From NCBI GenBank assembly GCA_003169695.1, contig PNAS01000077.1, forward strand, positions 1-64,000: a stretch of DNA of 64,000 nucleotides. Reading direction: 5' to 3'. The notes beneath the pieces are model-generated. The model saw only the letters and a list, made by a program, of their open reading frames with translations. It did no database searches and was not told where the DNA came from. Below are positions 10,452 through 51,709 of this stretch, in pieces. Position 1 is the stretch's first letter. Each line of letters starts with the position of its first letter. The stretch is from Spartobacteria bacterium. Its GTDB lineage: Bacteria; Verrucomicrobiota; Verrucomicrobiia; Chthoniobacterales; UBA10450. The translations under genes were made by a program, and so were the position numbers.

Positions 10452-10470
10452 GTAAGAACGGTCCGGAGAT

Positions 10471-25873: not shown

Positions 25874-28162
25874 ATGCCAACGAAAACGACGACCAAGACC
25901 GTAGCGCGCAAGTCCGCGACCGCTCGCAAACCGGTCAAGGCGGCCGCTCCGGTTAAAGCAGCGCATGAGCCGAAGCGCAAAGAGGCGAAGAGCGCCAAGA
26001 TAGAAGCGCCCGCGAAACCGGAGCACCCGTCGCTGGCGACGGCAACTACGCGGACGCGCTCTGACCGCGAACCCGCCACGTCGCAGGCTGAACACGCTCC
26101 CAAACTGGTCCCACCTCCGCCACCAACAGCGAAACCAGTGCTGGAAACCGTTTCGCTGATTGAAGAAAAAAAAACGCGGCCGAAACGCGCGGATGGCGAC
26201 GCCGCCACCAAGCGCTCGTTCCTGCCACCCATCTCCCGCATTCGCGCAACGGAAGACCCCCCCGCCGTAGCAGTCGCCCCATCGGTTGTTCCGGCGCCGG
26301 CTGCTCCGTCCGCCACGCAATCAACTGAAGGTTTGGCGCCAGGCACGGCGCCTGCCTCGACTGAAGCTGAAGGCGAGGCGCAAAAGATCATTCACATCAA
26401 GCCGCCGATCGTCGTCAAGGATTTGGCGCTGCAGCTCGGTCTGAAGAATTTCCAGCTCATCAAAGAGCTGATGGCCGACTTTAACATTTTCGCGAGCGGA
26501 CCTCAACAAACGGTCGAGCCGGACATCGCAACTCAGATTTGTGCCAAGCACGGCTTCGTTTTCGAAATGGAACGCCGCGAGAAAGGCGGCGGCGTCCACA
26601 AAGTCGAGCAAGTCGTCGTTGCGCCGCCTCCGCCGGTAATCGAGAAGAAAGAGGAACTCAAAACACGCGGCCCGATTATCACGTTCATGGGTCACGTCGA
26701 TCACGGCAAGACGTCGCTCATGGATGCGATTCGCAAGACGCGGGTCGCGGCGGGCGAAGCCGGCGGAATCACACAACACATCGGCGCTTACACCGTTGAT
26801 TACAAAGGCTCGCGCATCACGTTTCTCGACACACCCGGCCACGCCGCTTTCACCGCGATGCGGGCCCGCGGGGCACATGTAACCGACATCGTGGTCCTCG
26901 TTGTCGCGGCGGATGACGGATTGATGCCACAAACGCTGGAAGCGATCAGCCACGCGAAAGCCGCACCGCATGTGAAGATCATGGTCGCGATCAACAAGAT
27001 CGATTTGCCGTCAGCAAACGTCGATCGGGTCAAGAAGCAGCTGCAAGACCGGGAACTTTCTCCGGAGGATTGGGGCGGCGACACGATCGTGTGCGAAGTC
27101 TCCGCCACCAAGGGCACGGGGATCGATCATCTTCTCGAGATGATGGCGCTGCAGGCCGAAGTAATGGAATTGAAAGCGTCGCCGACCGCGACGCCGCGCG
27201 GCACCGTCATCGAAGCGCAGGTCGAGCCCGGCCGCGGACCGACCGCCACCGTCATCGTGCAGATGGGCACCCTCAAAACCGGCGATCCGTTCATTTGCGG
27301 CGACTACGGCGGCAAGATCAAATCGTTGATGGACGATCGGGGCAAACCGATCAAGGAAGCGGGCCCTTCCACGCCGGTAAAGGTGCTGGGCTTCAGCGGC
27401 CTTCCGCAGGCGGGGGATGAATTTCTGGTGATGGAATCCGAGCGCTCCGCGAAAACCTTGAGCGAAGAACGCCTCCTCGAGCGGCGTGCGGATAAGTTGA
27501 GCGTACCTCAACGCGCTACGCTCGAAAGTTTGCTCGAAGCCGCAGACGGCAAGAAACATCTGCGCATCGTTTTGAAATGCGACGCGCAAGGTTCGCTCGA
27601 AGCGCTGACCGGCGCACTCGATCAAATCGAGAGCAAAAAGATCGACCTTGCGATTGTCCATGCCGGCGTCGGACCGATTTCCGAATCCGACATCCTGCTC
27701 GCAAGCGCGTCGAACGCCGTGGTCGTAGGCTTCAACGTCAAGGTCGAGAGCATGGCCGTGAACGTCGCGAAACGCGAAGGCGTTCAGGTGAAGCTCTATA
27801 GTATTATTTACGAATTGATCGACCAGATGAAGGAAGCGATGGCTGGTCTGCTCGATCCGGAACATCGCGAAACCGTCATCGGTCACGCCGAAGTAAAACA
27901 GATCTTCAAATTAAGCAGAGGCATTGTCGCCGGCTGCCTCGTCACCGATGGTCGGATCGCTCGAACCGCGCGCGCGCGTGTTTTGCGGCGACGCCAGCCG
28001 GTTTACGATGGCGGCTTATCCACGCTGCGCCGTTTTCAGGACGACGTGAAAGAGGTGCGCGTCGGTCTCGAGTGCGGCATCAAGCTCGGTGACTTCAACG
28101 AATATCAAGTGGGCGACATCATCGAGTGCTATCAACTCGAGGCCGTCGCGCAGAAATTGTAG
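25874..28162 (+). CDS. infB: Translation initiation factor IF-2
   Basis: [59 protein letters not shown]. Confidence 0.97.
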
Positions 28163-28215
28163 CGCGAGCTCCCAGCTTGCGAACCGATCCGACGCAAGCT
28201 GGCAGCTTGCGCTAC
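28159..28215. repeat. BIME-like element: two inverted GTAG-headed hairpins overlapping the infB stop
   Basis: + strand GTAG-CGCGAGCT-CCC-AGCTTGCG, then CGCAAGCT-GGC-AGCTTGCG-CTAC. The TAG of the first GTAG is the infB stop codon. Confidence 0.75.
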
Positions 28216-29551: not shown

Positions 29552-29690
29552 TCCGTCAGTTCGCATTCCGGCGGGTGGATCGAGCGCTCCGCCGCTCGAT
29601 GTCAAATTGGCTGCGCAGCCGCAAACGAGAACTCATCGCGCGACGGAGCGCGCGATCCACCTCCGCCTTGGCGATGTCATTGACTGCAAC
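29526..29690. repeat. Perfect 20-bp direct repeat (29526..29545 and 29671..29690) flanking a BIME-containing insert
   Basis: gcgatgtcattgactgcaac occurs at both positions, with 125 bp in between that contains the element at 29574..29662. Confidence 0.95.
29574..29662. repeat. BIME-like element copy A (two inverted GTGG-headed hairpins plus a central hairpin)
   Basis: GTGG-ATCGAGCG-CTCCGC-CGCTCGAT ... GGCTGCGCAGCC ... ATCGCGCG-ACGGAG-CGCGCGAT-CCAC. Confidence 0.9.
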
Positions 29691-33817: not shown

Positions 33818-33908
33818 GGTGGATCGAGCGCTCCGTCGCTCAATGGCAAAATAGGGCGGCGAAGCCGCGTAAAAATAAACATCGCGCGACGGAGCGCGCG
33901 ATCCACCT
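33818..33908. repeat. BIME-like element copy B (GTGG family)
   Basis: ggtggatcgagcgctccgtcgctcaatgg...aagccgc...catcgcgcgacggagcgcgcgatccacct; right arm identical to copy A; 3 bp after the ribF stop. Confidence 0.9.
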
Positions 33909-48582: not shown

Positions 48583-50247
48583 ATGCCCGCCGTTCTGACC
48601 CTGCTGCGAATTAGGAATCTGGCGCTCGTCGAGGATTTGGAATGGCAGCTAGGACCGGGATTCACCGCCATTACCGGGGAGACAGGCGCGGGTAAATCAA
48701 TCATCATCGGTGCGCTGCAATTGCTGCTCGGCGAACGAACCGACAAATCCTTGATCCGCACCGGTGCCGATGTCTGCGCCGTCGAAGCAGTGTTTGCAGG
48801 GGCCAAGCTGGAAAGACTGAATCGTCAGCTGAGCGATGCGGGTATCGAGCCGTGCGAGGGCGAACTGATTGTTAAACGCAGTTTTTCGGCGACAGGCGCA
48901 AACCGCCAGTTCATCAACGGTTCACCTGCCACGCTCGCTGTGCTGAAAAATCTCGGGGACGAGCTGGTCGATTTGCATGGACCGCACGATCATCAATCGC
49001 TCCTTTCGCCGGACCGACAGCTCGCGTTGCTCGATGGATTTGCGCACGCGGAGGAGACAGCGCGGGAATTCGAGCAGCGCTATCGGAAGTTGCAAACGTT
49101 GGGAGCCGAACAGGCGGCGCTGAGCACGGCGGAATCTGCACGCGAACAGGAAATCGATCTGCTTCGTCACCAGGTGAGCGAAATCGCGAACGCGAAGTTA
49201 TCGGTGGCGGAGGAGGAAGAGATCGCCGTCCGCTACAAGCTCGCGGCCAACAGCAAGCGTTTGGTCGAGCTGGCGGGAACGATCACGCGCCGCCTTTCGG
49301 AAGCGGATGATTCCATTTTGCCGCAACTGGCCGAGACCCAGCGCCTGCTTCGAGAGCTGGAAAAAATCGACCCATCACAGGGAATCTTGGCCGAGGCGCA
49401 TGCTGCCAGCGTCGTCGAACTTTCTGAAATTTCGCGTTCGGTCAACCATTACGCCGACCAGCTCGATCTTGACCCGGAACAGCTCGCTACCCTTGAGGAG
49501 CGCGTTTCGCTCTTCGAAACATTGAAACGCAAATACGGCGGTTCGATCGTGGAAGTGGTTGCTTTTGGCGAACACGCTGCGGAGCGATTGCGCAAAATCG
49601 AAGGGCGCGACGAGGAACTCGAACGTTTGACCAGGGAGATCGAAAGGGCGCGCACCGAAGTCGAACGGACCGGGCAACTCCTGCAGAAACTGCGAGCCAA
49701 AGCGGCGCCAAGACTTTCTGAAAACATCCGCTCCAACCTGCGCGACCTTGGTTTTCGACAATCCGAATTCGAAGCGAAACTGACCACGCTCGACGAAGCC
49801 CGTGCGACCGGCTTCGACGCGATCGAGTTGCTTTTTTCTCCGAACCCGGGCGAGCCCTTGAAGCCGCTGCGCACGATCGCTTCGAGTGGCGAAATCTCAC
49901 GGCTGATGCTCGCGATCAAATCGTCGCTTGCCGAGCAGGATGCAATTCCGCTGCTCGTCTTCGACGAGATCGATGCAAACGTTGGTGGGGAAATTGCGAA
50001 TGCCGTCGGCGCCAAAATGAGAAAACTAGCCGGCGACCACCAAGTGCTCTGCATTACGCACTTGCCGCAAGTGGCCGCGGCTGCGGCAACGCATTTTGTT
50101 GTCACCAAGGAGGTGACGCACGGTCGAACACATTCCCGACTAAGCGAAGTCGCCGGCAAAGCCCGAAACGAAGAGATCGCGCGCATGCTCGGGGGAAAAA
50201 CAGAGTCCGCGTTGCGACATGCCGCGACTTTGTTGAAGGAGATGTAG
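48583..50247 (+). CDS. recN: DNA repair protein RecN
   Basis: MPAVLTLLRIRNLALVEDLEWQLGPGFTAITGETGAGKSIIIGAL, LLVFDEIDANVGGEIANAVG, VLCITHLPQVAAAAATHF. Confidence 0.96.
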   Translation: MPAVLTLLRIRNLALVEDLEWQLGPGFTAITGETGAGKSIIIGALQLLLGERTDKSLIRTGADVCAVEAVFAGAKLERLNRQLSDAGIEPCEGELIVKRSFSATGANRQFINGSPATLAVLKNLGDELVDLHGPHDHQSLLSPDRQLALLDGFAHAEETAREFEQRYRKLQTLGAEQAALSTAESAREQEIDLLRHQVSEIANAKLSVAEEEEIAVRYKLAANSKRLVELAGTITRRLSEADDSILPQLAETQRLLRELEKIDPSQGILAEAHAASVVELSEISRSVNHYADQLDLDPEQLATLEERVSLFETLKRKYGGSIVEVVAFGEHAAERLRKIEGRDEELERLTREIERARTEVERTGQLLQKLRAKAAPRLSENIRSNLRDLGFRQSEFEAKLTTLDEARATGFDAIELLFSPNPGEPLKPLRTIASSGEISRLMLAIKSSLAEQDAIPLLVFDEIDANVGGEIANAVGAKMRKLAGDHQVLCITHLPQVAAAAATHFVVTKEVTHGRTHSRLSEVAGKARNEEIARMLGGKTESALRHAATLLKEM

Positions 50248-50308
50248 CAGCGCTCGCCGCGGCGAGCGCCGAAGGCCAAGAACAGGCGCTTGGCACAAGC
50301 GCCCCTAC
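50244..50308. repeat. BIME-like element: two inverted GTAG-headed hairpins overlapping the recN stop
   Basis: GTAG-CA-GCGCTCGCCGCGGCGAGCGC ... AGGCGCTTG-GCA-CAAGCGCC-C-CTAC. The TAG of the first GTAG is the recN stop. Confidence 0.75.
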
Positions 50309-50323
50309 ATTTTATAAACCGTT

Positions 50324-51709
50324 GTGCTGAACTACATCTGGCTCGCGCTCGTTGTTCTGGCGGTTGCGATCGGCGGCTGGAACGATCGGCTGAATGAGGT
50401 GACCGCAGGCGCTTTCGATGGCGCAGGAACCGCGGTGACGATCGCGCTCGGCTTGATCGGAGTGATGGCGCTTTGGTTGGGCGTGATGCGTTTGGCAGAG
50501 CGCGCGGGCCTGGTGCAACGCATCGCGGCCGGCTTGCGCCCGATCATGCGACGCCTTTTTCCCGATGTGCCGCCCGAGCATCCGGCGATGGGTTCGATGC
50601 TCATGAACATGGCGGCGAACATGCTCGGGCTTGGGAACGCCGCGACTCCGCTCGGATTGCGCGCGATGCGGGATCTTGAGACGCTTAATCCGCGACCCGG
50701 CGTAGCGTCGAACGCAATGTGCACGTTTCTCGCGATCAATACGGCGTCGGTGCAATTGATTCCGGCGACCGCCATTGCGCTTCTCGCGGCGGCAGGGTCG
50801 ATGCGCCCGACCGCGATCGTCGGGACCGCGCTGCTCGCGACATTGTGCGCGGCGACGGTCGCGATCACGTCGGCAAAGATCCTGGAGAAGCTGCCCTTCT
50901 TTCGCTTGCGTGAAACGCGCGTCCAGGGGGGCGAAGTTCCTGCCGGGCGGGCGCGTCAGCCAGGCGGCTCGGCAGGAGTCTCGCCCTCCCCCCAAGCTCC
51001 AGTCGCGGCCAGCGACATTTTCAAAATGGAAGAGCTGGCTCCAATAGCCAGGCCGGGCACCTGGGCCTCCGCGGTTCTTGTCCTCTTGGGGTTCTTTTTC
51101 ATCGCGCTTTTCGCGCGCATGGTATTTCCGGGGTTGTTCAACCTGCCAGCCAACCCAAACGCGGCGACGCAGAGCGCTTTCGTGCGTAGCGTGAACGCGC
51201 TCTCCATTCTCGCGATACCGTTTCTCCTCAGCTTTTTTCCGGTCTATGCCGCAACGCGCGGAATAAAGGTTTTTGAGGAATTCGTCGAGGGCGCAAAGGA
51301 GAGCTTCGGCGTCATCCTGAAAATTATTCCGTTCCTCGTCACGATGCTCGTGGCGATCAGCATGTTCAAGGGTGCCGGTGGGATCGATCTTCTCGCGCGC
51401 GTGCTGACGCCCGTGCTGGCGCCGCTTCATTTTCCGACTGATTTGCTTCCGCTCGCTCTCATGCGGCCACTCAGCGGAAGCGCCACGCTCGCGATCCTGG
51501 CCGATATCATCCATCGCCTCGGCCCGGATAATATTGTGAGCCTGATGGCCGCGACGATCTACGGGAGCACCGAAACGACCTTTTACGTGGCAGCGGTTTA
51601 CTTCGGATCGGTCGGAGTGAAACAAACCCGCCACGCGATTCCCGCTGGATTGTTAGGCGATCTGGCCGGGGTCATCGCTTCGGTCATCGTCTGCCGCGCG
51701 GTTTTTTAG
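50324..51709 (+). CDS. Nucleoside-recognition (Gate) domain protein, SpmA-SpmB-like fusion
   Basis: N-half LMNMAANMLGLGNAATPLGLRAMRDLETLNP...; C-half KIIPFLVTMLVAISMFKGAGGIDLL...LALMRPLSGSATLAILADII...GSTETTFYVAAVYFGSVGVKQTRHA; GTG start. Confidence 0.9.
   Translation: MLNYIWLALVVLAVAIGGWNDRLNEVTAGAFDGAGTAVTIALGLIGVMALWLGVMRLAERAGLVQRIAAGLRPIMRRLFPDVPPEHPAMGSMLMNMAANMLGLGNAATPLGLRAMRDLETLNPRPGVASNAMCTFLAINTASVQLIPATAIALLAAAGSMRPTAIVGTALLATLCAATVAITSAKILEKLPFFRLRETRVQGGEVPAGRARQPGGSAGVSPSPQAPVAASDIFKMEELAPIARPGTWASAVLVLLGFFFIALFARMVFPGLFNLPANPNAATQSAFVRSVNALSILAIPFLLSFFPVYAATRGIKVFEEFVEGAKESFGVILKIIPFLVTMLVAISMFKGAGGIDLLARVLTPVLAPLHFPTDLLPLALMRPLSGSATLAILADIIHRLGPDNIVSLMAATIYGSTETTFYVAAVYFGSVGVKQTRHAIPAGLLGDLAGVIASVIVCRAVF

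Follow-up and report, generated by a model that had tools for sequence, protein, structure and literature searches.

The recN stop codon lies in the head of a GTAG-tagged REP dimer, and such overlaps exceed chance in an uncultured genus of Chthoniobacterales

The window analysed here is a stretch of 64,000 nt from contig PNAS01000077.1 of a Spartobacteria bacterium (assembly of 4.14 Mb in 85 contigs). In it, the stop codon of recN forms part of the GTAG head of a REP element, which raises the question of whether the element came to rest at an existing TAG stop or brought its own. The features of the locus, together with the companion case of infB, are listed below.

28157 to 28215, plus strand: another GTAG dimer, whose head holds the infB end TTG TAG (28157-28162)
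48583 to 50247, plus strand: recN, an ORF with our own choice of start; Pfam SMC_N/AAA_23
50242 to 50247, plus strand: left head hexamer ATGTAG, the last sense codon (Met) and stop of recN
50250 to 50269, plus strand: first REP hairpin, the perfect 20-bp palindrome GCGCTCGCCGCGGCGAGCGC, after GTAG and CA
50270 to 50284, plus strand: 15-nt spacer CGAAGGCCAAGAACA separating the two hairpins
50285 to 50303, minus strand: second REP hairpin GGCGCTTGGCACAAGCGCC, the inverted partner, reading TGTAGGGGCGCTTGTGCCAAGCGCC on the minus strand
50304 to 50309, minus strand: right head, CCTACA on the plus and TGTAGG on the minus strand, ending the dimer (CTAC at 50305-50308)
50324 to 51709, plus strand: the gene 3' of recN; Pfam Gate / nucleoside recognition

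The TAG stop of recN (50245-50247) falls within the left GTAG (50244-50247), and the whole element reads GTAG-CA-GCGCTCGCCGCGGCGAGCGC-CGAAGGCCAAGAACA-GGCGCTTGGCACAAGCGCC-C-CTAC over 50244-50308. Since it starts with TGTAG when read inward from either end, its two hairpins, which have unlike stems, form a head-to-head dimer, that is, a GTAG-tagged REP/BIME heterodimer of two stem families. The stem of the second hairpin is identical to that of a copy at 10470, and the same two stem types are paired again in element L005 of this genome. An earlier note had described recN as ending ATG-TAG inside a GTAG head that is followed by CA, a perfect 20-bp palindrome, an inverted partner of another family and a closing CTAC, and its coordinates and description were right on all these points. 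Compared with the congeners G006 and G005, ca. 10 nt were replaced at the end of recN (the last codon, the stop and 4 nt), while the protein length was unchanged; no relic of the old stop was left at the locus in this comparison. The gap between recN and the next gene is 76 nt, as against 19 nt in G005, which is free of the element. The genome is itself a soil MAG of the Verrucomicrobiota / Chthoniobacterales, and the named relatives of this recN were soil Chthoniobacterales / Spartobacteria MAGs, one of them a Ca. Udaeobacter.

According to the accessible text of Di Nocera, De Gregorio and Rocco (2013; PMC3733652), GTAG-tagged REPs occur in many phyla including Verrucomicrobia (Opitutus terrae), form head-head dimers, lie at most 20 bp from the 3' ends of genes, belong to several families per genome (24 are described), and have termini that "often provide" a TAG stop codon. 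The elements studied here resemble the REPs of that text in the GTAG at one end, the stem of 6-13 bp with a short loop, the dimers and the 3'-end siting, a likeness of layout and location; unlike the Opitutus terrae case, the host belongs to another verrucomicrobial order, Chthoniobacterales. Nunvar et al. (2010) tie RAYTs to heads of this kind, TGTAG and GGTAG among them (PMC2817692). The E. coli BIME/REP system with TnpA-REP (RAYT) is similar in its intergenic inverted REP pairs, its GTAG heads (PMC2817692, Table 1) and its RAYT genes, whereas its stems differ. The supply of stops by GTAG REPs is already known, and recN is a well-documented instance of that kind. New here are figures for an uncultured genus, together with a phase bias, a donor hexamer, relic gene ends and elements that turn up at the same genes in different species; in the accessible text of PMC3733652, no phase test, donor-hexamer analysis or cross-species comparison of gene ends was found.

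Stop overlap was evaluated in 1.264 Mb of the genome that holds the window (G000) and ca. 0.40 Mb each of the congeners G007 and G002 (2.06 Mb, three species). Genes were called with a hexamer model, and each TGTAG was scanned for a hairpin starting at most 2 nt away. This gave 135 heads (63 in G000, 26 in G007 and 46 in G002), while permuted-pentamer controls gave means of 5.5, 2.1 and 2.4, respectively (largest control in G000, 15). In G000, 47 heads lay between genes, 11 within called genes and 5 at stops, and about a fifth of the intergenic TGTAG pentamers (47/230) were REP heads. The pattern TGTAGNGGCG...CGCC with one mismatch, for which control matches nearly equalled the real ones, was left out of the counts.

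The TAG of the head was the stop of a gene in 17 of the 135 heads (5 in G000, 2 in G007 and 10 in G002), including one copy with an atypical stem that may not be a REP (G002 C12:36865). Head-to-stop distances for same-strand genes showed a single spike where the head TAG is the stop; 29 heads were spread over the 30 nt past the stop, and the final 100 nt of ORFs held 2 more. When heads were shifted randomly by up to 30 nt, 0.8 coincidences were obtained as against the 17 observed, a test that is partly circular since gene ends were set by an ORF caller of our own, in which any in-phase head makes an ORF end. The phase test and the orthologues, which are not circular, are stronger evidence. Near-terminal heads stood in the stop-giving phase in 17 of 19 cases, where one third was expected (binomial p = 6e-7). 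A hairpin directly followed 17 of 76 TGTAG stops (22%) versus 20 of 1,915 other stops (1%). These observations clearly support that REPs supply gene stops far above chance in this genus; a chance frequency, which the earlier note had named as the outcome that would speak against its reading, was thus not what the comparison with a shuffled expectation gave.

The base before TGTAG depended on the stem family: it was T in 29/31 copies with GGCG(T/G) stems and 8/8 with GGCA, A in 17/21 with AGGCG, and C in 26/29 with CGGCG and 4/4 with CCGCTTCGC, with no strong conservation further upstream. Since this first base is fixed within a family and conservation fades beyond it, the element ends at the hexamer NTGTAG, and thus carries a sense codon plus a stop in one of the three phases. 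Among the stop copies that were assigned to a family, 12 of 13 carried the base of their own family.

The ends of orthologous genes were then compared across the genus. Element-free recN genes end in AGG-TAG, CGC-TAA, AGC-TAG, CGC-TGA or CGG-TAA, exonuclease orthologues without the element end in CGA-TGA in four congeners, and the ruvB stop is TGA in 6 of 7 congeners. The element-free pyrC of G001 ends ...NQPV-TAG-CCGCCCGAG, and the old codons with their stop context (...NQPV-stop) were found behind the insert in G000 and G007; in G006, the old pyrC end is likewise readable behind its element. In G007, RuvB is shortened (ELL-stop versus ELFGS-stop), and the displaced tail lies ca. 106 nt downstream. 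Weaker relics of a similar kind were seen at three or four more loci. Judging from these gene ends, the relics and the family-specific hexamer, the comparison favours an element that donates a stop rather than finds one. Another dispersed repeat (GTCATCCCGAGCG...CGCTCGGGATGAC) follows the 3' end of pyrC in G003, G004 and G007 (L169, L157 and L153); the G007 copy has the former pyrC tail behind it.

The earlier note had also pointed to infB as a second gene with its stop in a GTAG head, and this was borne out: the head at 28157 is followed by CGCGAGCTCCCAGCTTGCG...CGCAAGCTGGCAGCTTGCG-CTAC. The infB element is common to G000 and G002, and other congeners have no element at the stop position. The stop of recN lies in a GTAG REP in G000 (LLKEM), G003 (LLKL), G018 (L277; LLKEM) and L292 (LEK), and the stems and break points of these four differ. 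Two or more congeners likewise have REPs at the stop of a PTPS-like gene, of pyrC and of several G002 genes. Among 87 orthologues of the index genes, by our own count, ca. 20 carry an element at the stop; for genes overall the figure is 17 of 1,992. Shared ancestry explains some of this recurrence, as for infB in G000 and G002; it does not explain the cases with different stems.

Based on these results, it is probable that, taken as a whole, the pattern reflects a non-autonomous REP/BIME that inserts near the 3' ends of genes, donates its stop there and is filtered by selection. A short non-autonomous repeat would be spread, presumably, by the RAYTs of the genome, and its NTGTAG end would read as a Leu or Met codon plus a stop in one of three phases. 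An in-phase insertion in the last codons of a gene would give a clean protein end and survive, whereas insertions in the other phases would cause read-through into the hairpin and mostly be purged, so that selection would act as a phase filter. At recN, the insertion would have swapped out the last codon, the old stop and ca. 4 nt while keeping the same protein length, and its placement would have had little effect on RecN. Such a course would show that a mobile hairpin which brings its own stop along can lodge at the ends of essential, conserved genes and leave them intact. What the literature says in qualitative terms also becomes testable here, as phase bias, donor hexamer and relic gene tails, and we offer the set of loci for telling targeting from tolerance.

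Several observations do not fit this account easily. Just past stops there is ca. one head per position; tolerance of 3-5 terminal codons therefore predicts ca. 3-5 stop overlaps rather than 17, and hot spots, targeting or positive selection would have to account for the remainder. The change in C-terminal length is near zero in many stop-overlap cases. In addition, the pyrC genes of three congeners without a clear GTAG REP (G004, G005 and G007) end in TTG-TAG, which can be read as a pre-existing target. Elements recur at the same genes more often, and the spike stands higher, than mere acceptance of insertions in a few terminal codons would lead one to expect; hot spots, some targeting or positive selection are possible contributors. 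We consider it unlikely that the NTGTAG head evolved or was retained as a portable cassette of sense codon and stop, with a bias of insertion or retention towards gene ends and REPs repeatedly capturing the stops of the same genes across species.

The earlier note had left the choice between insertion targeted at TAG stops and tolerance of insertions that recreate a stop. Its premise that the overlap is not chance was upheld by the heads and overlaps counted above (63 versus 5.5 and 17 versus 0.8), and tolerance gained support from the hexamer, the phase of 17 of the 19 heads and the pyrC and ruvB relics, whereas targeting was mostly unneeded, the element-free orthologues usually ending in other contexts. 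That a transposase places the REP beside a pre-existing (T)GTAG, so that TAG stops preceded by TG are preferentially struck, is improbable as a general account. A sharp spike at one position, the nearly constant protein length, the TTG-TAG ends of pyrC and the repeated strikes on the same genes would all suit it, as would a second repeat family, GTGGATCG, 4 of whose 8 G007 copies sit directly behind a TAG stop and which at one locus has the same GAA-TAG as an element-free relative. It is opposed by the element-free orthologues, most of which end without TGTAG, by a sixth base (the N of NTGTAG) that tracks the element family, and by several loci at which the former stop and codons persist past the element; moreover, a different insert precedes the old tail in the pyrC of G007, so that TTG-TAG need not be ancestral there. 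Members of IS200/IS605 recognise a TTAC-type target with guide sequences, in which a tetranucleotide beside the hairpin guides recognition, and their transposases have a related Y1 fold. In that system the tetranucleotide belongs to the target DNA on the element's left, whereas here NTGTAG, with its family-specific first base, travels with the element. A pre-existing target as the main cause, weighed first with IS608-like targeting in mind, was rejected on the relics and the family-specific hexamer. Targeting may nevertheless act at some loci, because protein length often hardly changes and the spike is several-fold above what tolerance predicts.

Selection for a hairpin tight against the stop, for mRNA 3'-end protection or for control of translation or termination, with copies kept in many species, is quite improbable as the cause of the pattern. 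E. coli REPs within ca. 15 nt of stops affect ribosomes. The same genes recur here with different stems, strong hairpins lie 2 nt past the stop, and REPs are described as mRNA-stabilising (Newbury et al. 1987, as reported in the accessible text of PMC7509114); on the other hand, most congeners have no element at any given gene, and no enrichment of other hairpins was seen behind other kinds of stop (ca. 1%). Such a function is compatible with donation of a stop by an inserted REP and would be additional to it. Coincidence or an ORF-calling artefact is very improbable. Stops define ORF ends, any in-frame TGTAG ends an ORF, and with a fifth of intergenic TGTAG being REP heads some overlaps are expected; however, the genes concerned, among them recN, infB, pyrC and ruvB, are conserved and full-length, the ends of their orthologues are known, and the sliding and phase tests already contradict this explanation.

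As RNA, the recN element folds at -30.2 kcal/mol (z -2.1), and its first hairpin, 2 nt past the stop, at -15.9 kcal/mol by itself. By likeness to REPs generally, the element may plausibly influence mRNA decay or translation. The second hairpin is followed by CCTACATTTT; an intrinsic terminator is a weak reading at best, with 2 terminator-like sites versus 1.1 in shuffles. The element had no Rfam family match, the sole match in the window being a tRNA. As for a MITE with target-site duplications, a possible short flanking repeat was seen by eye at L008 and L019 and none at recN or most other loci.

A search of the genome with the recN element gave 62 matches at E<=10, many of them weak or double counts of a palindrome; dispersed relatives number in the dozens, and further inverted head-head dimers are among the elements of the genome. 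Y1-type transposases were found at four loci, of which L021 (82.9 bits) and L024 (87.5 bits) exceeded the cut-off of 80 for NCBIfam REP_Tyr_transpos (NF047646) and L023 fell just under it. The L024 RAYT lies in a cluster of TTGTAG-GGCGTCTG REPs on both its sides, and no RAYT locus of the genome was found with the exact recN-element stems at its sides. Mobilisation of these REP families by RAYTs is putative.

Some further observations were made along the way. TAG was the stop of ca. 31-33% of genes in G000, G002 and G007, a share that exceeds expectation for many bacteria and of which REPs account for a small part. The second repeat family, with heads GTGGATCG / CGATCCAC, occurs in the window at 29635-29656 and 33881-33902 and at loci of G007 and G004/G006; at one gene, G006 keeps the GAA-TAG of the element-free G001. 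This family may insert beside existing TAG stops, and possibly resembles the GTGG-headed variant reported for Opitutus terrae. At L024:389-904, the RAYT ORF, with REPs on both sides, runs in frame across an entire REP dimer and encodes the peptide ...RASVSDAILRNGVSQKRPTT... from GGCGTCTGTGTCAGACGCC...GGCGTTTCACAGAAACGCCCTACA. L022:862-1863 encodes a DnaA C-terminal helix-turn-helix domain fused to a Y1 transposase-like protein. In G002, a single REP dimer (C9:69123-69199) gives stops to two convergent genes, one at each end.
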